Positions 2,598 to 30,548 of a stretch of 64,000 bases of DNA are shown here, piece by piece. The first letter of the stretch is position 1. Each line of letters begins with the position of its first letter. This stretch comes from Lutibacter sp. Hel_I_33_5 (GTDB taxonomy: Bacteria > Bacteroidota > Bacteroidia > Flavobacteriales > Flavobacteriaceae), in NCBI RefSeq assembly GCF_007827455.1, contig NZ_VISM01000001.1, forward strand, positions 3,037,421-3,101,420, given 5' to 3'. The translations under genes and the position numbers were made by a program. The notes below the pieces were generated by a model, which worked only from the letters and a program-made list of their open reading frames with translations, was not told where the DNA came from and ran no database searches.

Positions 2598-5500
2598 TTA
2601 ATTTTTCTTTGTAAAGTCTTTAAAAATAACCTTTCTCCGTTTTTCAACAACATAGAAGGAAATATAAACGCCATCTTGAGAATTTTTGAGTTTCATTGGG
2701 ATGTTATTTCTTGAGATTTTAAAACGTTCTCCTAAGATTTGTTCGTCCATAGTGACCGTATAATCTCCAAAAGGTAAATAGAATTCGAATCGTCCTTTCT
2801 TGTTTGTAAGTGTGCTATAAGCGTTGGTGTTTTTTATTGCGGTAATTTTTATTCTTGATAAATCGATAGCTGCTTTATCGGCTACCGCAATTTTCTGACG
2901 GTCTAAAATGACGTCTCCATAAACTTTAACACCTCTTACAAAGGGAATGTGAGTTATTCCGTCATCAATAATAAAAATTGAATCTTTTACATTCGGAAAC
3001 CACCCATTTAGTTTTTCTAATGAAAATGTTTCTAGCTTGTATTTATTTTTCTGAAGATTTTTAACGATTGCTTCTCCATTAGCATCCGTTAGTACTTCAT
3101 TTTTATTCAATTTAACAACAACATTTTCTAAAGCACTTTCGTTAGCATCTTTTATACTATTTCCATTAATATCAAGAAAAGCAACTATTTTTTTAGTGGC
3201 ATTTACTTTTTTAGCAAAAGGAATCGGAATTCCGAAATCTTTTCTTAGGCTAAAATTCAAATTAAAATTACTGTTTATTATTGGCCCCGAAGTACCGAAG
3301 GTGTTATTGTTTTGTTGATCTACATTGTCGAAAACAGAACTGAAATCTGATGAGCTAAATGTATAATTTGCACTTAAACCAAAACGCCAACCTGTATCTG
3401 TAAAGTAATAGACATTAGGAAATATTCCTGCGGTATGATTATTAAATACGTTATTAAAACTATAGATAAGATTAGATTCTAAGACTAATCTTCTATTAGG
3501 AAATTGATATTGATTTTGCAACGAAAGTCGTATAGATTGAGGCGTTAAAAAGTCGTTTGTACTTGCTTGTGAAGTAATGGAAGAAAAAGAACCTAGACTA
3601 TATAAAGCATTAAAGTTCCAGGTTTTATATCTAATTAAGCCTGTAACTTGTAAGTTAAAATAGTCTTTTGCATCTATAATATCTTTTGCTCTAGCATACC
3701 CAACTCTTGTAAAAACAGAGGCTAAAAAGTTATTCAAGAAATTAAATTTAGAGTATCTAAAGGTTGCTCCTCTGTTTAATAATGAATTATTGGGTATATT
3801 TCTATTTTCGTAATATAAACCTGTTTGATAGGAGCCACTATCATTTTTTGTAGAAAATACAAGGTTAGAGAATACTAAATCTTGTTTATATAATTGATTA
3901 TTATTGATATCGTATGACGTTAAATCTTGATAGTTTGTAGATAAAAACGAACTCCAATTATTGTTAATTTTATACTGTACTCTATTGTTTGCAACAAATC
4001 TTTCAAAATTTGAAAAACTAAAGTTTTTATCATTTACTCTAAAACTTGTATTTACTTTTAATCTCTTTTTTAGAAAGGAGGCATTATAACTACCGCCAAA
4101 CATAAAGCCTTTTCTAGTTTCTGAAGTGTTTAAAATTTCTTTATTAGAAAATACAGTATTAATATTAATACCATGCTTGTTAAATATTTTTGCGTTCGCA
4201 CTTAAAGAAGCAATGGTTATGTTTCTATTTGAAATATTATTTATATTTCTACCAACACTTGCGGTAATTTCATAGCCATTATAAGGTCTAAATCGATACC
4301 AACCACCAAAAGTTCTATTGTTTTTAGAATCAAAAAATCCATTTGAGTTTACAAAAAATGCACCAGCTGCATGTTTTTCAGAAAATAAATAGGACGCTTT
4401 TACACCTGTACCAGCATTGGCAATTCCAATTAAATTTCCGCTTACTTGCCCAACTTCAATGCTCTTTTTTTCATCAAAATAACCAACATACCACGGCATG
4501 TTATTAAAAACATTGTTGGTGAAAAAAGCATTACTATAATTTATTTGAGTAGAGTAAATAATATTAGCTTTGGAATTAAGCTGTTTAAAGCCTCGTAAAC
4601 TTAATGCAAGAAAAGAACGATCATCTAGAACGTTTTGTGCGTTTAATTCTACTGTTAATGGTAAATAAGGGTATCCGTAAGGATTAGCCTCTAATTCATT
4701 AGGCAGTTTTACAAAATTTAATTTTGTTCTTTTCCTTGAAAAATTACTTTCAAATTTTGGTTCACTACTATTAATAATCAACGAATGTGTTTTTCGCTTC
4801 TTATTTTTATTTGGTAAATAGGTGTTTAAAGAAATTCGTTTATGGTTTCTTTTTAGCAAATTATTAATATTAGCAACATAACTAAACTCTTTTTGAGCTC
4901 TTGGTTCTAAACTAATTGTTGTATTAATGTTCTTTAAACGATTAAATAAAGTATCCGTAAGAAATAAGTCTTTTTTAGGAATGTTAAAGTTGATAAACAA
5001 ATCTTGATTGTTGTTTCCAGTATTTATTACAGAAAAGTCAAATCGTTTCGTTGTTTCACCATTTTTAAAATAAATATTTGTGTTATTTGGAGCGCTTAAT
5101 GCCCAAGAAATTCTTTTTTTAGTTTTTAAAGAAAAGAAATTATTTGCTAATTGCTGGTCTTCTTCACCAACTAAAAAGGTATTAACTATTATTTCTGTAT
5201 TTCCATTAATTAATTTTCTTGGGCTTATAATTATCGGTACATATAAGGTATCGTTAGCTTTTACAGTATATGTTTTTGTGGCATCATCAATTCGTGTCCA
5301 GCCACCAGGATAAATTAAATCTGTTTTAAAACGTATTTCTTTTTTACCAATATTTACAATATGCAAAACGTTAGAAACTACTTCTCCAGGTTTTAAATTA
5401 ATAATTTTTCTAGCATACTTTGTCAGTAAATTTCCGCTTCTTAAAAACTCATTATCTTCATCTTCTTCGATAAAATTCCTTTTCCCAGGAGCAACTAAAG

Positions 5501-6854
5501 TTTTAGAAATACTTTGTGTTATGGTGTCTTTTGGAATTATTGATTCACTTATTTGTTTTTTTTCTTCTGCTTTATTTACGATATCTTCTAAAATTGTAAA
5601 ATCACCTTCTTTTGAGTTGATTTTCTTCTCTTCTTTATTGGTTGGAGTGGTAGTAACTATTTCAGGTAATTCAGCAACTGTCTTCTTTTGTGGTGCGCTA
5701 ACTATTGTAGATTCATTTTCTTTTGAGTTAATTTTCTCCGTTTCTTTTTTTGTTGGCGTAGTAGTAACTATTTCAGGTAATTCAGCAACTGTCTTCTTTT
5801 GTGGTGCGCTAACTATTGTAGATTCATTTTCTTTTGAGTTAATTTTCTCCGTTTCTTTTTTGGTTGGAGTGGTAGTAACTATTTCTGGTGATTCAGCAAT
5901 AGTCTTTTTTTGAGGTGCATTTATTATTGTAGATTCATTTTCTTTTGAGTTAATTTTCTCCGTTTCTTTTTTGGTTGGAGTGGTAGTAACTATTTCTGTT
6001 GATTCAGCAATAGTCTTTTTTTGAGGTGCATTTACTATTGTAGATTCACTTCCTTTTGAGTTAATTTTCTCCGTTTCTTTATTGGTTGGATTGTTAACAG
6101 CTACTTCTGACGATTCAGCAAGTATCTTCTTTTTATTCAGTACAACTTCTTGAGCTGGATTAATATCTTCTTTAATTACTATTTTGCTTTTTGCATTTTC
6201 TTTTTTCTTCAGAACAGTTTTTTCAAGAGCTTTTGTTATTTCTTTTGTTGCTGATGCAATTGATTCTTTTTTCTCTTTTACTTCAGTATTAGGACTTTCT
6301 GATGTTGTCTTTTTCTGATTTAATGCAACTTCCTCTTTTGATTCTGTTACACTATTTTTTTCAATAGAAGGATCTTCTTTAAGATGTATGATTTCTTTTA
6401 AAGTAATTGGATCGATTATTTTTTTTGGTGGAGGTTTTACTTCAGTAAAAACTACTTCTTTATTTTCGTCTTTAATTTTTTGCTTAACGTTCTTTGCAAG
6501 TCGCTCTAGTTCTAAATTATTTTTAAGTGTTTTTAAAGAGTCTAATTTCTTTTTTCTTTGAAGTAAAGCATAACGTTTTTGTTTAAGCTTATCTAAATCT
6601 CTTGCTTTTTTTTCTGCAATTCTAATTTTCCTAGCCTCTTGTCTTACCTTTAATCGTGCTTTTTTAATAGAATCTTTTTTTCTTTTTTGGGCAATTTTTG
6701 CAGCTCTTATTTTTTTTAATATAGTAGCTCTAGATTCTTTTTTTACAGGAATTGTATCGTTTTCTTGAGAAAAACTTGATTGCGAGCATAGAAGAGCACA
6801 AATGAATAAAAGTTTATAAAGAAATTTTAATAAAGAAGAATTATTGGTTTTCAA
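2598..6854 (-). CDS. Usher-like outer-membrane beta-barrel protein with long Lys/Glu-rich periplasmic arm
   Basis: I do not recognise a named family for this 1418-residue protein. Visible parts: a signal peptide ending around FSQ (residues 1-29); a Lys/Glu-rich, probably helical and extended segment to about 440 carrying ~37-residue tandem repeats; two Ig-like, NEW3-type beta domains (about 460-690, for example LKPGEVVSNVLHIVNIG); a long stretch of alternating aromatic/polar strands typical of an outer-membrane barrel (about 700-1200); and two C-terminal carboxypeptidase-regulatory/SdrD-B-like domains (FLDINGNSIKDANES, then TNKKGRFEFYLPFGDYTV). The plan of periplasmic beta domains, a barrel and small C-terminal beta domains, together with a PapD-like chaperone and two subunit-like proteins in the same operon, suggests an usher-like secretion and assembly pore. 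That role is inference from context. It starts 4 bases after the upstream gene. It could instead be an anchoring or sensing porin. Confidence 0.6.
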   Translation of the reverse strand: MKTNNSSLLKFLYKLLFICALLCSQSSFSQENDTIPVKKESRATILKKIRAAKIAQKRKKDSIKKARLKVRQEARKIRIAEKKARDLDKLKQKRYALLQRKKKLDSLKTLKNNLELERLAKNVKQKIKDENKEVVFTEVKPPPKKIIDPITLKEIIHLKEDPSIEKNSVTESKEEVALNQKKTTSESPNTEVKEKKESIASATKEITKALEKTVLKKKENAKSKIVIKEDINPAQEVVLNKKKILAESSEVAVNNPTNKETEKINSKGSESTIVNAPQKKTIAESTEIVTTTPTKKETEKINSKENESTIINAPQKKTIAESPEIVTTTPTKKETEKINSKENESTIVSAPQKKTVAELPEIVTTTPTKKETEKINSKENESTIVSAPQKKTVAELPEIVTTTPTNKEEKKINSKEGDFTILEDIVNKAEEKKQISESIIPKDTITQSISKTLVAPGKRNFIEEDEDNEFLRSGNLLTKYARKIINLKPGEVVSNVLHIVNIGKKEIRFKTDLIYPGGWTRIDDATKTYTVKANDTLYVPIIISPRKLINGNTEIIVNTFLVGEEDQQLANNFFSLKTKKRISWALSAPNNTNIYFKNGETTKRFDFSVINTGNNNQDLFINFNIPKKDLFLTDTLFNRLKNINTTISLEPRAQKEFSYVANINNLLKRNHKRISLNTYLPNKNKKRKTHSLIINSSEPKFESNFSRKRTKLNFVKLPNELEANPYGYPYLPLTVELNAQNVLDDRSFLALSLRGFKQLNSKANIIYSTQINYSNAFFTNNVFNNMPWYVGYFDEKKSIEVGQVSGNLIGIANAGTGVKASYLFSEKHAAGAFFVNSNGFFDSKNNRTFGGWYRFRPYNGYEITASVGRNINNISNRNITIASLSANAKIFNKHGININTVFSNKEILNTSETRKGFMFGGSYNASFLKKRLKVNTSFRVNDKNFSFSNFERFVANNRVQYKINNNWSSFLSTNYQDLTSYDINNNQLYKQDLVFSNLVFSTKNDSGSYQTGLYYENRNIPNNSLLNRGATFRYSKFNFLNNFLASVFTRVGYARAKDIIDAKDYFNLQVTGLIRYKTWNFNALYSLGSFSSITSQASTNDFLTPQSIRLSLQNQYQFPNRRLVLESNLIYSFNNVFNNHTAGIFPNVYYFTDTGWRFGLSANYTFSSSDFSSVFDNVDQQNNNTFGTSGPIINSNFNLNFSLRKDFGIPIPFAKKVNATKKIVAFLDINGNSIKDANESALENVVVKLNKNEVLTDANGEAIVKNLQKNKYKLETFSLEKLNGWFPNVKDSIFIIDDGITHIPFVRGVKVYGDVILDRQKIAVADKAAIDLSRIKITAIKNTNAYSTLTNKKGRFEFYLPFGDYTVTMDEQILGERFKISRNNIPMKLKNSQDGVYISFYVVEKRRKVIFKDFTKKN
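5641..6084. repeat. 111-bp in-frame tandem repeats inside the barrel gene
   Basis: GTTGG...GTAGTAAC motifs recur at 5641, 5752, 5863, 5974 and 6085, exactly 111 bases apart, giving four full units and degenerate flanks. Each encodes 37 residues of the type PTKKETEKINSKENESTI followed by an APQKKT...EIVTTT half. The first two units (5641-5862) are nearly identical, which points to recent expansion. The phase is preserved because the unit length is a multiple of three. Confidence 0.9.
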
Positions 6855-6858
6855 ATCT

Positions 6859-7488
6859 TTATAAGTTTTCTGATAATAGGAATCTAATATTTAATTTGAA
6901 TATTCCTGGATTAAAAGAAAAGTCTGGTTTAAACCTAATATCAACATTAAAATTAAACTCATTATAATTTGTTAAATAACTTCCTGCACCATTTATATTA
7001 TCTGTACAGCTTCCGGCTGGAGTAACTGGTAACATCTGTTCTATGATATCTAAAATATCATTTGCATCTGTAAACGATCTATAAATTCCATCTGAAGGTG
7101 ATGTAGTACAAGAATTCCTTACTCTAATTTCTAAAGAATTTATTAAAGGGTTTTGACCATTTCCATTACCATAAGTAGTAATTTCTTCCCATTCTGTAGG
7201 TGGAGTTCCAGCACCAGAATTATTATCAATAAACATACGCAAACTCCAAGAACATAATGGATCTGGTGTGTTTTTATCTTCTACGGTTACTCTAATTCTT
7301 GTAACACTATTAATTGTAATACCAGATTGGTAATTCGTAAAATTATCAAAAACCATTAAAGAGTTTACAGTTGTATCTGGCGTTATAGAAACATCGCCAC
7401 AATGAATTTGAGCATTGCTTGTTGTAGTTGCCCAAAATAACACGACTACTATTAGAAAATTTAATACTTTAGATAGTTTTAAAATCAT
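6859..7488 (-). CDS. Secreted subunit-like protein, paralogue of the upstream 256-residue protein
   Basis: This 209-residue protein has a signal peptide (cleavage near NAQ, about residue 27) and no recognisable enzyme motif. It shares an order of motifs with the neighbouring 256-residue protein: a GDVSIT start, then YQSGIT, a V-rich strand, a W-S-L motif, then GAGSYL and a C-terminal strand PGIFKLNIRFLL near the end. The neighbour has DVSIT, YNAGIT, W-D-L, AGGSYL and PGVYTMYVQYVLL at matching places. The pair therefore looks like minor and major subunits of one secreted structure, handled by the chaperone encoded upstream. A hairpin terminator lies between the two genes, so this one is probably expressed less. 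It sits 4 bases before the barrel gene. Function is inferred only from context. Confidence 0.6.
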   Translation of the reverse strand: MILKLSKVLNFLIVVVLFWATTTSNAQIHCGDVSITPDTTVNSLMVFDNFTNYQSGITINSVTRIRVTVEDKNTPDPLCSWSLRMFIDNNSGAGTPPTEWEEITTYGNGNGQNPLINSLEIRVRNSCTTSPSDGIYRSFTDANDILDIIEQMLPVTPAGSCTDNINGAGSYLTNYNEFNFNVDIRFKPDFSFNPGIFKLNIRFLLSENL

Positions 7489-7495
7489 TCTTATT

Positions 7496-7534
7496 ATAAA
7501 AAGGATGTAACTAAGTAATTAAGTTACATCCTTT
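7496..7534 (-). terminator. Internal (attenuating) terminator between the two subunit genes
   Basis: The minus strand forms a 12-bp stem AAGGATGTAACT / AGTTACATCCTT with an 8-base loop, followed by TTTTT. It lies inside the operon, after the 256-residue gene and before the 209-residue gene, so partial read-through would lower expression of the last two genes. Confidence 0.75.
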
Positions 7535-7556
7535 TTTAATTACATTTTTATTTTTT

Positions 7557-8327
7557 TTATTGGTCTTCTAGTAAAACATATTGTACATACATTGTATATA
7601 CTCCAGGTTCTGCATAGTTACCCGCAGCATTTGCAGTTACAATATCTTCTGCAGCAGCTGTTGTTTGATTAAATGCATTTGGGAATACAGCCGGTAAACT
7701 TGGTAAAATTCTATAATCCATTACATAGTAAAAGTTAGAAGATGTACCAGTTTGGTTTAAATAACTACCACCAGCCATAAAATCTCCAGTACCAGTTGTA
7801 CCATCGTGTCCAGCAATATATTTGTTATTTAAGTCTGGTGCGTTAGAACCACCATCATCATTTACAAATACACTATTAGATCCAGAAGGAGTACTTGCAT
7901 TTGGAAAACGTGCACTATAATCTCTAAAAGGACCAGTACTTGCTCCACCACCAGTATTTGCTTGACTCTGTCTAAGCTCTAATAAACTGATAGGTAAGTC
8001 TGATATAGAATTTGAAGAACTTCCGTAAGATACTTGTTGATCCCAAAATCTATTTCCTCTTTGCGATCTACCTACTGCATATAAATCCCAGTTTACTGTA
8101 GAACTTACTTTTAATATAGTACCACCATGTTGGGTAATACCTGCATTGTACTCATTCACCTCATCAAAAACGAATTCGATTTGATTCGGAGTAGTCATTT
8201 CTAATTGCAACACCGGTTGCATGTCTAATGTGATTGACACATCTTTTTCGTCAATCAATTGTGCGTTGGCAGATGAAAATACACCTACTAGTAGCACTGC
8301 TGTAATTACTAAATTTAGTTTTCTCAT
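7557..8327 (-). CDS. Secreted subunit-like protein (candidate major subunit)
   Basis: The 256-residue product begins with a clear signal peptide, MRKLNLVITAVLLVGVFSSANAQ. The mature part is Gly/Ser/Asn/Thr-rich with few charges and no cysteine, as expected of a beta-sandwich surface subunit. Motifs shared with the downstream paralogue are DVSIT, YNAGIT, a V-x-x-x-x-x-W-D-L strand, AGGSYL and a terminal amphipathic strand PGVYTMYVQYVLL. The W-x-L motif after a beta-rich N-terminus recalls WxL and spore-coat-U/DUF4402-like modules, but the similarity is too weak to assign a family. It is the second gene of the operon, 48 bases after the chaperone gene and followed by a hairpin terminator. That is the expected position for the most abundant subunit. 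The structural role is an inference. Confidence 0.6.
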   Translation of the reverse strand: MRKLNLVITAVLLVGVFSSANAQLIDEKDVSITLDMQPVLQLEMTTPNQIEFVFDEVNEYNAGITQHGGTILKVSSTVNWDLYAVGRSQRGNRFWDQQVSYGSSSNSISDLPISLLELRQSQANTGGGASTGPFRDYSARFPNASTPSGSNSVFVNDDGGSNAPDLNNKYIAGHDGTTGTGDFMAGGSYLNQTGTSSNFYYVMDYRILPSLPAVFPNAFNQTTAAAEDIVTANAAGNYAEPGVYTMYVQYVLLEDQ

Positions 8328-8375
8328 AATAAATAAAATTTAAGGGAGTTTTTGTTAATATTAATTTTTTATAAT

Positions 8376-9242
8376 TTATTTGATTTCAAATTCCATTTTT
8401 GCTGCTTGTATTTCATCAGAACTTTCGTAATCTAATACTCCTACAGCCAAATATTTTCCACTAGGGAGTTTATCTGGTAATGTAAAAGAGAAGTTTCTTT
8501 CTAGTTCTGGTATGATAGTAAACTTTTTCACTTTTAATCTTTCTTGTTGCCCAGTACTTAAATTTGTTAAATCTATATAAGAAGTACAATACGCAATTCC
8601 GTCTCCAGTATTTTGAACTTTTAAAAATAAAGAGGCAGTATCTTCTGACTGATCAAACTGAAAATCAGTGAACTCTACTTTATTAGATAATACATTTGGC
8701 GGATTTTGATAAGCAAAAATTCCAAATGCAAAAGTTGGTATTACTCCTAAGGCAACTGTACCATTACTTTTACGTGTATTTGCTAAAGAGGTTCTTGGAG
8801 CTTCTTGTTCTACCATTAAGATAGACCAAGCTGCTTTTCTACCAGAATCATCATTAGGAACACTAACGGTAACTTTTACTAATCTTTTTTCGAAAGGCTT
8901 TAATTCTACAAAAGTAGGAGAGACGCTTAACCATTTAGATAATGAATATTTTCCTTTTCCAGGAGGTAAAAAACTACTCTTACCTCTGCTATTCATATCA
9001 AAGTCATACATGTTTACATTAAACTGCATGTTACTATTCGTACTATTATTAATAGTAATATTATAGGTTTTTACTTCTCCTTGTTTTTGATTGAAATGGA
9101 AATGTGCAGGTGAGACCGAAACTCCAGTGGATTTACGAGCAGGTTTGTTTTGACTATTGACATTCTGAGTGTTTAAACAAACAGAAAAAACCAACATAAT
9201 CATCAAAACTGAATATAGGGGAATTCTAGTTTTTAGGGGCAT
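8376..9242 (-). CDS. PapD-like / DUF916-like periplasmic chaperone
   Basis: The 288-residue protein has a signal peptide (residues 1-30, ending NSQ) and two Ig-like domains. The first contains GVSVSPAHFHFNQKQGEVKTYNITINNSTN, the start-of-domain pattern of fimbrial chaperones and of DUF916 (WxL-protein partner) domains, then LSVSPTFVELKPFEKRLVKVTVSVP. The second (about 185-288) has FLKVQNTGDGIAYC and LPSGKYLAVGVLDYE, typical of the DUF3324/bacterial Ig class. Its likely job is to bind the following two subunit-like proteins in the periplasm and present them to the barrel protein. It is the first gene of the operon and has the best promoter match in the window directly upstream. Classical PapD active-site basic residues cannot be assigned with confidence, so the family call is moderate. 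Confidence 0.65.
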   Translation of the reverse strand: MPLKTRIPLYSVLMIMLVFSVCLNTQNVNSQNKPARKSTGVSVSPAHFHFNQKQGEVKTYNITINNSTNSNMQFNVNMYDFDMNSRGKSSFLPPGKGKYSLSKWLSVSPTFVELKPFEKRLVKVTVSVPNDDSGRKAAWSILMVEQEAPRTSLANTRKSNGTVALGVIPTFAFGIFAYQNPPNVLSNKVEFTDFQFDQSEDTASLFLKVQNTGDGIAYCTSYIDLTNLSTGQQERLKVKKFTIIPELERNFSFTLPDKLPSGKYLAVGVLDYESSDEIQAAKMEFEIK

Positions 9243-9269
9243 TAAATTTGGTTTACTGAGTCAAATAAA

Positions 9270-9299
9270 CAAATTTAGAATTTAATAAACAAATCCAAA
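9270..9299 (-). promoter_or_regulatory. Promoter of the chaperone/subunit/barrel operon
   Basis: On the minus strand a TTTG (-33; plus 9296-9299) is followed after 18 bases by TAAATTTG (-7; plus 9270-9277), an excellent match to the Flavobacterium housekeeping promoter. The ATG of the chaperone gene lies 27 bases further on. Confidence 0.65.
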
Positions 9300-24330: not shown

Positions 24331-24364
24331 AAAAAGCCCAAGTTTTAAACTTGGGCTTTTTTTT
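24331..24364. terminator. Bidirectional terminator between lgt and the MBG adhesin gene
   Basis: AAAGCCCAAGTT pairs with AACTTGGGCTTT around a TTA loop and has A/T runs on both sides. The last T residues overlap the adhesin stop codon region. Confidence 0.9.
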
Positions 24365-27300
24365 ATTCAATTTTAAAGAATTTAAGGACTTTGGAATTTT
24401 GATTAGAGTAGACTTTAATAAAGTAAACACCAACTTTTAAACGCTCGACATCTAATTGTATATCTTTAGATTGATGATTTCTAAATTGTAGTTCTTTACC
24501 ATTTATATCGTAAACTATCGTTTTTGTAATCTTAGAATGGTTACTAATAGTTATTCTTTTTGATACAGGATTTGGAAAGAGTTTTAAATTTTGAAATACA
24601 ACATCTTCTACTGATAAAATAGTTTCTGTTTTAAATTTCCATGAAGTTTTACTTGTTAAACCAGACCAATTATTATTAAATTGACCTTTTATAATTCCAT
24701 TAGGAATATCAATATAGATATCAGTATTTTGTGGTAAATAGGTAATGGGATAAATTACTAAAGTATTATTATAAATAACGGTATTTATTACATCAATAGT
24801 ATTTATTATACTGTTGTCACTAACTTTTCTGATAAATAGTGAACCTTCCCCTTTTTGAATAAATCTGTCGAAATTAATTTCTAAGTTTTTATTGATTTTA
24901 ACATTGGTTGCATTATTAATTGGAGAAAACGTTGTAGTTAAAGGTTCTTCTGCCTCTGTATGGAAATTCTCTACACCACCATATAAAACATTGTTTTGAA
25001 TTCTACCATTGTTATTACCAAGAATAATATAAGTTTGAAAATAATATTGAGTAGCTACTGATAAATTATTGATGGTAATTGTGAATTCACCAGTAAAAAC
25101 ATCATCTACAACTTTGATTACATCTGCACCTCCAATTTTAGGGCTCATATTTGTAGATGAATATACAACACCACGTTCTATTACATTTACGTCAGTTGCT
25201 TCTCCAGTAATAGTTACAGAAACCGAAGAAACAGCACTTGTTTGTAAAGTTTGCACAAGGGTAATTGAAAAATCACTAGAAACAAAAGTTTCGTTATAAT
25301 TATCTCCATAGGTTAAGGTTCCTTTATTTATAGAATAAGTTCCAACAGTTTCACCATTAGTTCTTTCTAACATTCCAGAAGCATTATCATTATTTACAGC
25401 AGAACTAGCAGTTATAGAATATGTTAATATTGGGTCATTTTCTCCTTCAATTTTAAATTGATTATGATTAACTGTAATTGTAATAGCTCTTTTAGTAACA
25501 GTAAATGTTCCTTTAGTTTGTATGATGTTGTAATTAACATCTGTAGCATTAGTAACATTAATATCATACGTTCCCACATCTGATAAAGTTGTAGCTATAG
25601 AATTAATAGATGGCGCAGTATCTAAAGAACTAGCATCATCCGAATTTTTAAATCCGCTAAACATCACTGTAAAAGTTGGGTTCGTATCCCCATATTCACG
25701 TGTTTTATTATCCGCAGTAATGGTAAGATTCGCTTTAGAAATAGTTAATGTTCCTTTAGTTTGAGTAATATTATAATTAACATCAGCCCCACCAGATAAA
25801 TTAATATCATGATTTCCTACATTAGAACTCTCTGTTGCCGTAGAACTCACAGAAGGAGCATTGTCTAAACTAGCAAAAGTATCCGAGTTTTTAAATCCGC
25901 TGTAAACAATTGTAAAAGCAGGATTCGCATCACCATATTCACGTGCTTTATTTTCAGCTGTTGCAGTAACAGTTGCTTTAGTTATTGTTAAGGTTCCTTT
26001 GGTTTCAGTAATGTTATAATTAACATCAGCCCCACCAGATACATTTATATCATGATTTCCTACATTAGAAGCATTTGTTGCCGCAGAACTCGCAGTAGAA
26101 GCAGTGTCTAGACTAGCAAAAGTATCCGAGTTTTTAAATCCACTGTAAGCAATTGTAAATGCAGGATTTGCATCACCATATTCACGTGATTTATCATCAG
26201 CAGTAGCAGTAATTGTAGCTTTACTAATAGATAACTTTCCTTTTGTTTGTGTGATGTTATAATTAGCATCTACAGCACCAGCAACAGTAATATCATGATT
26301 TCCAACATTCGATGAAGTATCAGCAGTAGAACTAGCCGTAGGTTTGGTATCTAAACTATCAGAAGTATCAGCGTTTTTAAATCCACTATAAGAAATTGTA
26401 AATGTTGGATTTGCATCTCCATATTCACGAGTTTTGTTATCAGCAGTAGCAGTAATTGTAGCTTTACTAATAGTTAACGTTCCTTTTGTTTGTGTGATGT
26501 CATAATTAGCATCTACAGCACCAGCAACAGTAATATCATGATTTCCAACATTCGATGAAGTATCAGCAATAGAACTTGCAGTAGGTTTGGTATCTAAACT
26601 ATCAGAAGTATCAGCGTTTTTAAATCCACTATAAGCAATTGTAAATGCAGGATTTGCATCTCCATATTCACGAGATTTATTATCAGCTGTCGCTGTAATA
26701 GTTGCTTTAGAAATAGTTAACGTTCCTTTTGTTTGTGTGATGTCATAATTAGCATCTACAGCACCAGCAACAGTAATATCATGATTTCCAACATTCGATG
26801 AAGTATCAGCAGTAGAACTTGCATTAGGTTTGGTATCTAAACTATCAGAAGTATCTGAGTTTTTAAATCCACTATAAGCAATTGTAAATGCAGGATTTGC
26901 ATCTCCATATTCACGAGTTTTGTTATCTGCAGTAGCCGTAACAGTTGCTTTAGAAATAGTTAAGGTTCCTTTTGTATTTGTTATATCATAATTGTTGTCA
27001 CTTCCACCATTAACGGTAATATCATGAGTTCCTGCATTTGTATTGGCATCGGCAACAGAACTAGCAGTAGGAGCAGTATCTAAAACTGTATTGGTTTCAC
27101 CATTTTTAAATCCTGCATAAATAATTGTAAATGTTGGATTTGCATCTCCATATTCACGAGTTTTGTTATCTGCTGTAGCCGTAACAGTTGCTTTAGAAAT
27201 GGTTAAAGTTCCATTAGCAGGAGTGATGTTATAATTGTTATCGCTTCCTCCATTAACGGTAATATCATAAGTTCCTGCATTTGTATTTGCATTGGTAATT

Positions 27301-30300
27301 GAACTAGCAGTAGGCTCTGTATCTAACACCGCATTCGTTTCACTATTTTTAAATCCTGCATAAGTTATTGTAAATGTTGGATTTACATCCCCATATTCAC
27401 GAGATTTATCATCCGCTGTAGCGGTAATAGTTGCTTTAGAAATAGTTAAAGTTCCGTTTGCAGGAGTGATGTTATAATTGGTATCGCTTCCACCACTAAC
27501 TGTAATATCATGAGTTCCTGCATTGGTTGTTGTATCTGCTGTAGAGCTTACTGTTGGTAAGGTATCTATATCAGTACTAGTCTCTGAATTTTTAAATCCA
27601 CTATAATTAATTGTGAAAGTAGGATTTGCATCCGCATACTCGCGAGATTTATCATCCGCTGTAGCGGTAATAATTGCTTTGTTAATAGTAAGAGTAATAT
27701 CTTTAGTTGCTGCTTTATAATTTGCATCCTCAGCTAATGTTGCTCTAACGGTAACGCTAGCTGCATTACCTACAGTTACAGTTTTTTTATTAGTACCAGA
27801 TAAACTGGTTCCGTTTTTAGTTCCAATAATTGAATATGAAATTACTCCTGTTGAATTTGATGTAGCTGCTAAATCAAAATTTGCATCACCATAGGTCTTA
27901 GTTATATTTTCAAAAGTAATAGTAGGATCTAATTTTGTGGTAGTAAAAACTCCTGTAAATCCATAGGTAGTACCTATAGCATTCGATGAATATGCCTTAA
28001 AATGATATTCAGTGTTAGGGGATAAGCTAGTTATGGATTTAGAAAAGGTTCCAAAACCAGCACCATTGACATCTTTTGATACTCCTGTACCATCAATAAA
28101 AGGATCTGCATTAATGGATTTAATTGAATATACTACACCTCTTTCGGTAATATTTATACCTCCAGTTGTTAAAGCTTCTCCTGCAAGAGTTACAGATGTA
28201 CTAGCAATATTACTTGCTGCTTGGGTACTTGTTGTTGGTAGTTTGGTATTAATAGCAATATTTGTATTGCTTTGAAGGTCGGTAAAACCACCTACATAAA
28301 AATTTGTATTTGCAGGATTATTACCAGAGTCTATTATAGTTCCAGAATTTAGATCTAGATAAGGACTATGATGAATTAATAAATCCGTATTTGCTTCATC
28401 ACCAGCTTGAACGGTATAAAGAAAACGTAGGGTATCTGAATCATTACCACTAGTATAATTAATAGTTCTATCTACTGTACCTGTTTCTAAAGTCATTTGT
28501 GGAGTGCCCGTTACAAATACTTTTTCAGAAAATTTTACATCTATGTATATTTCTTCACCTATAGAATAAGTACCATCAGGTGTTGTAGAATCTACACTTA
28601 AAATTGTTGGAGCAACTAAGTCTTTTATAATGGTATAAGTGAGTTCTGGACCTGGATTTTCATTATTTACATCTGCTACTCTAAATTTAAAAGTTATTTC
28701 CCCGTCCAATAATGTGTTTAAGCTACCGATAATAAAGTTAGTATAGCTTCCAGAATAGTATGTGCTGCCCAAAGTAGGGCCGCCAGCACTACTTGTTACA
28801 GACCAAGTCATAGGGAATTGTTTAGATGGATGATTTACACCTTCAAAATTTAATGTAGTGCTGCTTACATTATTACTAATATTTATAGCTGCCACATCTA
28901 CATTAAAACTATACCCAATGGGTGTAGTAACAGCATCAATATTTAAGGCTTTTATAAAACCTAATGAATTACTCGCTCCAGGCGTAGCTAGAGTTAAAGC
29001 TGCATCATTATTTAAATTATCTTTAATTGTACCTCCATTTAATGTTAAAGAATTGGTTGCTTTATAATCTAAGTCACTATTTAAATCGCCAGCTTGTACT
29101 GTATAGTTAAATGTTAAGGTGTTTGTATCGCTTCCAGATACATAATCAATTAACCTATCTGTAGTTCCTGTTTCTAATTCTAATTGAGGAGTTCCTGTAA
29201 CGGTAACATTTTTGTTAAATTGAATGGTGATGGGGATTAATTCTCCCGTATTATAATTACCATCTGTTTTAGTACTTGATACTAATGATACAATTGGAGT
29301 AGAAGTATCTATAGTAATATTTTTGTTTGCTCCTAAAGAATTTGCAGCCCCTGGTGAGGGTAAAGTTAGTGTAGCGTTTTTAGCATTCGCATGTTTTATT
29401 GTTCCTCCATTTAATGTTAATGAACTTGTAGCTTTATAATCTAAATCGCTAATATTATCTGTAGGTTGTACTGTATAATTAAATAATAACGTATTTGTTC
29501 CAGTACCAGAGACATAATCAATTTCTCTATCAGTTATACCAGTATTTAATTCTAATTTCGGAGTACCAGTAACATTTACAGGTTCCGAAAATGTAATAGT
29601 AATAGGAATTACATTTGATAAAACATAAGTTCCATCTGAAACAGAACTGGTAACGTTGGTTACAGTTGGTGTAACGGTAGATATTACTAAATTTTTATTA
29701 GCACCTAAAGAACCTGCTGCTCCAGGACTCGGCAAAGTTAATATTGCATTGCCACCTGAATTAACGTGTTTTATAGTGCCTCCATTTAATGTTAAAGAAG
29801 TTGTTGCTTTATAATCTAAATCGGCACTTTCATCGCCATTTTGTATTGTATATGTAAAAGTTAAAGTATTGGTTCCTGTTCCAGTGCTATAGGTTGCTAT
29901 TTTATCTGTTGAACCCGTTTCTAATTCTAATTGAGGAATTCCTGTTACATTTACTGAATGAGAAAAAGTAACTGTAATAGGCATTGGTGTACTTATATCA
30001 TTATAAGTACCATCAGGAACGGAAGTAGTAATATTGGTTACAGTAGGATTTACTATTGGTATTATATCTGCTTCAAAGATTAAATCATATCCTGAGGTTG
30101 GACTATTTGAAGAAAAATAAGCTTGTCCACCACTATAAATATTAGACCCATTACTTTCGTAAAACAAATTTGCACCATTACGAATATCAAATGTGTATTT
30201 CTGACCGTTAGTTACAGAGATATTTAATGAAGAAACATCAATTTCAGAATAGTCTGTATTAGTAGTCTTTGTGCTTATATTTGCAGTTGATAAATTCCCT

Positions 30301-30548
30301 AAATTAGATCCTAAATATCCTTCACCTTCATAAATAGTAATGGTTGCTCCAGATTTGTCAGCTCCACCTAAAACTTTAATTTTAGATAAAACACCTGATT
30401 GACAAGCGGTGAAACTTTGTCCAAAATAATCATATTGAGCATTTGTTATTGTACCACTAGTTGCACTTTCTGTACATTGAGCGTTACTTTGGATTGATGT
30501 AAAAAAAATAAATACAAGTATTACTACTAAAGCATATTTTTTATTCAT
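24363..30548 (-). CDS. Giant T9SS-exported adhesin-like protein with nine MBG repeats
   Basis: This 2061-residue protein has a signal peptide (ends SNAQ, about 23), a beta-rich N-terminal domain, and four Ig-like repeats of the type VTSxxxDGTYxxGxxIPITIxFxxxVxVTGTPxLxLETG (about 165-740). Nine MBG domains of ~81 residues follow (about 960-1690), each with [19 protein letters not shown] and a GTLTISKA end. The C-terminal ~75 residues ([15 protein letters not shown]...GVYFIKVYS) form a type A T9SS sorting domain that is recognised for export and cut off at the surface. Function is probably adhesion or surface coating. It is monocistronic, with a -7 element upstream and a terminator downstream. 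Ligand is unknown. Confidence 0.85.
25490..27674. repeat. Nine 243-bp tandem repeats coding for MBG domains
   Basis: The segment is close to nine times 243 bases. Repeats four to six, counting from the protein N-terminus, are almost identical over long stretches, while the first and ninth are most divergent. This is the usual outcome of unequal recombination in the middle of an array. Confidence 0.9.

Follow-up and report, generated by a model that had tools for sequence, protein, structure and literature searches.

The question addressed here is what is built by a four-gene operon of Lutibacter sp. Hel_I_33_5, found in the final 64 kb of the 3.10-Mb single-contig genome (this whole stretch of 64,000 nucleotides is referred to as the window). 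The operon is read on the minus strand from 9242 to 2598 and encodes, in this order, a chaperone, subunit 1, subunit 2 and an outer-membrane barrel protein; all frames are intact, and the intergenic gaps are 48, 68 and 4 bases. A preliminary description of this DNA had read the four genes as one operon for a possible chaperone-usher-like fibre assembly system, and we consider it likely that the operon is indeed a chaperone-usher-like pathway building an extracellular TLP-type protein fibre. Support for this reading came from the homology of subunit 1 to TLP, a WxLIP/PapD-like chaperone, the retention of the gene set in different families of Bacteroidia, and a Foldseek search in which FimD chains were the best hits of the barrel model. 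The four genes are as follows.

8376..9242, minus strand: chaperone, 288 residues, two immunoglobulin (Ig)-like domains, WxLIP/DUF916-like (matches to PF06030, EfmWxLIP1 and a PapD-type profile).
7557..8327, minus strand: subunit 1, 256 residues, major pilin candidate (homology to PDB 9ikk/9ikj).
6859..7488, minus strand: subunit 2, 209 residues, candidate tip subunit with four invariant Cys (related to subunit 1; model resembles 9ikk).
2598..6854, minus strand: outer-membrane barrel protein, 1418 residues, TTG start, candidate usher-like assembly platform (homologues, structure model and Foldseek hits).

Residues 24-254 of subunit 1 were found by profile and single-sequence searches of the PDB to be homologous to the chain of 9ikk (E 2e-41) and to 9ikj (E 3e-40), with about 41% identity to TLP. 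These entries, released on 2024-11-13, are titled 'Cryo-EM structure of TLP-1b' (9ikk) and TLP-1a (9ikj) and contain 16 chains each; from the chain count and the cryo-EM method we infer that they are filaments. No paper on TLP or on this system was found among those listed in searches of the open PMC literature. The two subunits are mutually related, as described before (HHalign 96.6%, E 7e-10), and the best structural match of the subunit-2 model was also TLP (9ikk), with a mixed list of TasA, CanA, virus capsids and FimG beneath it. Homologues at E<=1e-3 numbered at least 985 for subunit 1, 249 for subunit 2 and at least 365 for the barrel protein. Cys30, Cys79, Cys127 and Cys161 of subunit 2 were invariant in a 50-row alignment, and no Pfam match to fimbrillin was obtained among the window proteins. 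The segment of subunit 1 on which polymerization would depend is the following.

8214..8258, minus strand: residues 24-38 (LIDEKDVSITLDMQP), an N-terminal stretch of the mature form of subunit 1 and candidate donor strand (conserved motif, from which the role is proposed).

This N-terminal strand motif was present in 26/26 subunit-1 sequences and in 0/23 subunit-2 sequences, and because it is confined to subunit 1, subunit 2 may be the tip subunit, an assignment we regard as somewhat better than even; the N-terminus of subunit 2 was shorter in only 14 of the 23 sequences. The same genome has, some 9.4 kb ahead of the window, an orphan subunit-1 paralogue (271 residues, L145:9221-10036) that carries the same motif and may serve this machinery as an alternative pilin. 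In 11 loci whose chaperones belong to two other classes of the family (B and C), short pilins were accompanied by a tip-like protein of 340-478 residues, the C-terminal part of which is a pilin domain (HHalign 99%). Separately, four or five pilin genes (about 180 residues, mutual identity 53-100%) were observed near the chaperone in L042, L044 and L045, three of the five in L044 lying about 4 kb further off.

The gene order was conserved in relatives, and the loss of synteny that would have spoken against the reading was not found. A chaperone search of species genomes yielded eight loci, titled Flavobacterium, Flavobacteriaceae, Polaribacter, Flavicella and Bacteroidia. The complete order of chaperone, subunit 1, subunit 2 and barrel was located between recG and rsmB in L004, L006, L007, L008 and L009, and L005 showed the same order as far as the end of the locus; the four genes were also kept in L011, a Bacteroidia metagenome-assembled genome with 60% GC vs 30% in the window. 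Identity of the window proteins to aligned relatives was 33-71%. Because the order is kept in L004-L009 and the four genes in the high-GC L011, the gene set must be old within the class; in these Flavobacteriaceae it occupies one place. At the site between recG and rsmB in L010 (8193-8939), a deletion was observed that fuses the first 238 chaperone residues to the last barrel residues. The distribution is sparse: a class-A chaperone, the class of the window (E<1e-100), was found in 3/299 family genomes and the barrel in 3/59 relatives, the own genome counted in both, and one of the three barrels is a remnant. The same-genus genome G020 carries a broken barrel remnant with stops at the rsmB site (L003) and an intact class-D chaperone-barrel pair elsewhere (L054).

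When the TLP sequence was searched against 395 class genomes, matches were obtained in 31, the own genome included (E<=1e-5). Twenty regions were fetched (the 19 best-scoring TLP matches in other genomes, plus an additional place in the own genome), of which 17 contained subunit 1, subunit 2 and the barrel, and 16 the chaperone as well. The chaperone lay about 1.6 kb past the barrel in L126 and L129, L135 was a short contig with partial ends, and L130 had a contig end near the expected place of the chaperone. L134, L141 and L145 (own genome) were orphan subunit-1 genes, each in a genome having the set elsewhere. The gap between subunit 2 and the barrel was -19 to 13 bases in 15 of the 17 regions, and 37 and 62 bases in the remaining two.

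Chaperone matches from a phylum search (21/296 genomes) and a family search (13/299) numbered 36 without those of the own genome; all were read in context, and a barrel-family gene adjoined the chaperone in 30 of them. This was the case in 17/20 loci that supplied the barrel profiles of classes B-D and in 13/16 loci not used for them, the latter being the independent figure since the profiles came from the first 20 loci. No barrel-family gene was seen near the chaperone match in L049, L050, L053, L086, L088 and L091; L091 also showed no chaperone open reading frame (ORF) reaching 80 residues. Chaperone and barrel identities were correlated (r 0.93, 35 loci, 0/2000 permutations), which a common history of the species could by itself produce; the loci L009 and L076 are identical in sequence. 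Of 395 phylum genomes sampled with the broader profile A6, built from 20 chaperone-family sequences, 82 had a match at E<=1e-6, which in 32 of these reached E<1e-40; the gene context was read for part of them. Sequence comparison shows that the parts have homologues across the Bacteroidia and are found together there.

The barrel protein was divided as follows.

5445..6764, minus strand: charged N-terminal arm, residues 31-470 as counted, variable among relatives (composition and repeat).
5593-6133: 111-base tandem repeat (37 residues), 4.9 copies, within the arm.
4863..5444, minus strand: periplasmic Ig-like pair, residues about 471-664 (model strands 17-210).
3225..4730, minus strand: beta-barrel of about 24-26 long strands, residues about 709-1210 (model strands 255-756, counted by eye).
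2643..3203, minus strand: two C-terminal beta domains, residues about 1218-1404 (SdrD_B and CarboxypepD_reg under cut-off; model strands 764-950).

The C-terminal beta domains described earlier resemble CarboxypepD_reg and SdrD_B, with matches slightly under the cut-offs. In the five class pairs compared, barrels of classes A-D showed homology along some 800 columns or more (HHalign 98.5-99.9%). The best Foldseek hits of the barrel model were FimD chains, a result that is only partly specific, and VIA-align placed 6r2q and porins alongside FimD. Several results weigh against an usher-like reading of this protein. The usher profiles PF00577, PapC_N and PapC_C matched no window protein at E<=1, so that the barrel is by profile no member of PF00577; PF00577 also had no match in the genome at E<=0.001, and among 14 control genomes E. 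coli alone matched. The model contains no plug-sized insert, the longest strandless stretch within its barrel region being 24 residues (715-738, one model). A proof by sequence that the barrel is an usher was sought without success: its profile reached HHalign 58% against seven K-12 ushers, compared with 7.6% for the reversed control and no more than 0.1% for five shuffles, but it scored higher still, 84%, with twelve TonB receptors from the own genome. Because the TonB receptors score 84%, the usher match is taken as generic for outer-membrane strands; smaller barrel class profiles reached at most 11% against ushers. The idea that the barrel protein carries, in its N-terminal Ig pair, a copy of the chaperone was likewise considered and then dropped: pooled profiles gave 96%, but 12/16 class-wise comparisons were below 20%, the other four, at 79-96%, being the chaperones of classes B, C and D vs class D, and C vs A. 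Generic Ig similarity is enough to explain this likeness, though the two may still be related.

These points lend some weight to another arrangement, a surface fibre or layer with chaperone-stabilised subunits in which the barrel is merely an outer-membrane anchor or docking platform and secretion takes another route; the matches of the barrel fold have little specificity, docking might be the role of the Ig pair and the C-terminal domains, and the model is plugless. We regard it as unlikely, given the barrel-family gene beside the chaperone in 30/36 loci and the correlated identities of the two proteins, though species history could explain the latter. Nor was a lipobox pattern found within the first 45 residues of any of the four proteins, and no sorting model of the type IX secretion system (T9SS) was among the NCBIfam matches at E<=1, a collection in which such models are presumably present. 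As judged by eye, each of the four starts with a Sec-like signal. The statement of the preliminary description that neither signal is there thus stands.

The charged arm of about 400 residues had been called unique. It does exist (440 residues, of which 19% are Lys and 14% Glu) but is neither unique nor general: among 110 scored barrel homologues (from the best 120 of at least 365, ten being unscorable), fewer than 120 residues preceded the core in 83, 120-300 in 6 and more than 300 in 21. The long arm is lineage-specific, an accessory of part of the family and not a defining feature.

The chaperone had been described as PapD/DUF916-like, and the comparisons agree with this, for PapD more weakly. 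PF06030 (DUF916) matched it with E 7.7e-6 and 26.4 bits, slightly under the cut-off of 27.3, and profile A6 matched the solved EfmWxLIP1 (9i25, 9i1y) with E 1e-8 over both domains (profile positions 40-261), so that through A6 the chaperone family has the WxLIP domain pair DUF916 + DUF3324. In PMC10599100, a DUF916 hairpin or strand is predicted to complete the WxL sandwich in the WxLIP system, which is the logic of donor-strand complementation. A 41-row profile of the chaperone family matched seven E. coli K-12 PapD-type chaperones with HHalign 89.5% (E 1.9e-6, 200 columns, collinear; reversed control 0.4%, five shuffles 0.1-0.2%), and when 1223 ORFs were searched with a K-12 chaperone profile, each of the six proteins listed was a chaperone of the present family (best E 1.1e-5). 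Two results tell against the PapD link: the match fell with smaller profiles (56% with 20 sequences, 0.6% with class A alone), and the large profile also reached 40% against K-12 pilins, over the signal-peptide region. No match to PF00345 (PapD-type) was obtained for the window chaperone, the chaperone of L086 reaching 18.9 bits vs a cut-off of 23, and PapD_N matched no window protein at E<=1. As far as alignment can tell, the family is homologous to WxLIP, whereas homology to chaperones of the PapD type has weaker support. The strand proposed to act on the subunits is given below.

8709..8765, minus strand: residues 160-178 of the chaperone (NGTVALGVIPTFAFGIFAY), a candidate donor strand (G1-like) preceding the QNPP turn (aligned with the FimC strand ending in IKLYYRP).

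A donor-strand role of residues 160-178 is suggested by this alignment. In PapD, R8 and K112 anchor the C-terminus of the subunit. These are not kept in the window chaperone, in which H47 and F176 stand at the FimC TR and IKLYYRP positions; class A has H in 7/8 rows and F in 8/8 (L009 and L076 being identical), class B has R in 6/6 and K in 6/6, class C has R in 4/7 and K in 0/7, and class D has R in 0/15 and K in 0/15. The loss of both residues in the window's class, together with the homology to WxLIP over both domains, would fit a WxL-like system whose chaperone-like protein is a structural partner staying with the subunits and not a catalytic chaperone. We find this quite improbable, as the chaperone has no C-terminal transmembrane helix (sequence end ...LDYESSDEIQAAKMEFEIK, read directly), subunit-1 relatives were solved as 16-chain assemblies of that chain, and the host group is diderm. 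That the locus is decaying or non-functional, as the remnant with stops in L003 and the deletion in L010 might suggest, is least credible of all beside four intact frames and 33-71% identity in aligned relatives.

For the chaperone-usher-like pathway, the evidence for the parts and their linkage is strong, and donor-strand exchange and export through the barrel would complete it as follows. After Sec-dependent entry into the periplasm, each subunit, presumably an incomplete sandwich, would be completed by a strand lent by the chaperone (about residues 160-178) and then delivered by it to the barrel protein, at the Ig and C-terminal domains on the periplasmic side. Subunit 2, being without the N-terminal strand motif, would go first and, with the modest preference stated above, form the tip. 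Copies of subunit 1 would follow, each N-terminal strand being inserted into the groove of the preceding subunit as the chaperone leaves, and the chain would pass through the barrel of 24-26 strands. Where present, the repeat-rich arm may span the periplasm or bind the wall. The operon itself is real, and it is probably a working chaperone-usher-like fibre system in Bacteroidota.

The claim of a strong promoter was not supported, sigma-70-like sites being at chance level (32 found vs 32.8 expected). One upstream element was recorded.

9299-9262, minus strand: putative Bacteroidota-type promoter, TTTGG...TTTATTTG, upstream of the operon.

This element resembles the Bacteroidota promoter, and a similar one was present in 6/7 aligned upstream regions, the exception being L009. 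The operon is flanked by recG-like and rsmB-like genes (names read by eye), and elsewhere in the window a minus-strand ORF of 2061 residues was noted at 24363-30548.

A wider proposal, to which we give slightly less than an even chance, is that of a Bacteroidota-wide donor-strand fibre pathway apart from PF00577 ushers, with a single chaperone superfamily linking Gram-positive WxLIP and proteobacterial PapD, a plugless barrel and TLP-type filaments. If it were true, strand-complementation chaperones would predate chaperone-usher pili and extend beyond them, with the usher as one of at least two outer-membrane solutions. The operon itself supplies probable assembly machinery for the TLP filaments, a class already solved, and brings WxL and PapD together in one evolutionary picture; related chaperones are common among the phylum genomes sampled.

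Among known systems, type V (lipoprotein) pili are likewise surface fibres of Bacteroidota, but the window subunits have neither a lipobox nor a fimbrillin match in Pfam, and the gene set is another. With the WxL/WxLIP (DUF916-DUF3324) systems of Gram-positives the chaperone shares homology over both domains, and strand insertion into WxL is predicted there (PMC10599100); unlike those, the window chaperone is without a C-terminal membrane helix and is paired with an outer-membrane-type barrel. The likeness to TLP-1a/TLP-1b lies in the subunits (residues 24-254 of subunit 1 and the best match of the subunit-2 model). The survey in PMC4793230 omits chaperone-usher systems. From the classical and archaic chaperone-usher systems (FimC/FimD, Csu) the operon differs in the missing usher and PapD_N profile matches, in having an Ig pair where ushers carry their N-terminal domain, and in the plugless model. 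It shares with them a two-domain chaperone and the arrangement of the genes in one operon, and may also share subunits with an N-terminal donor strand and a barrel with two C-terminal beta domains, the barrel model finding its best Foldseek hits in FimD chains.
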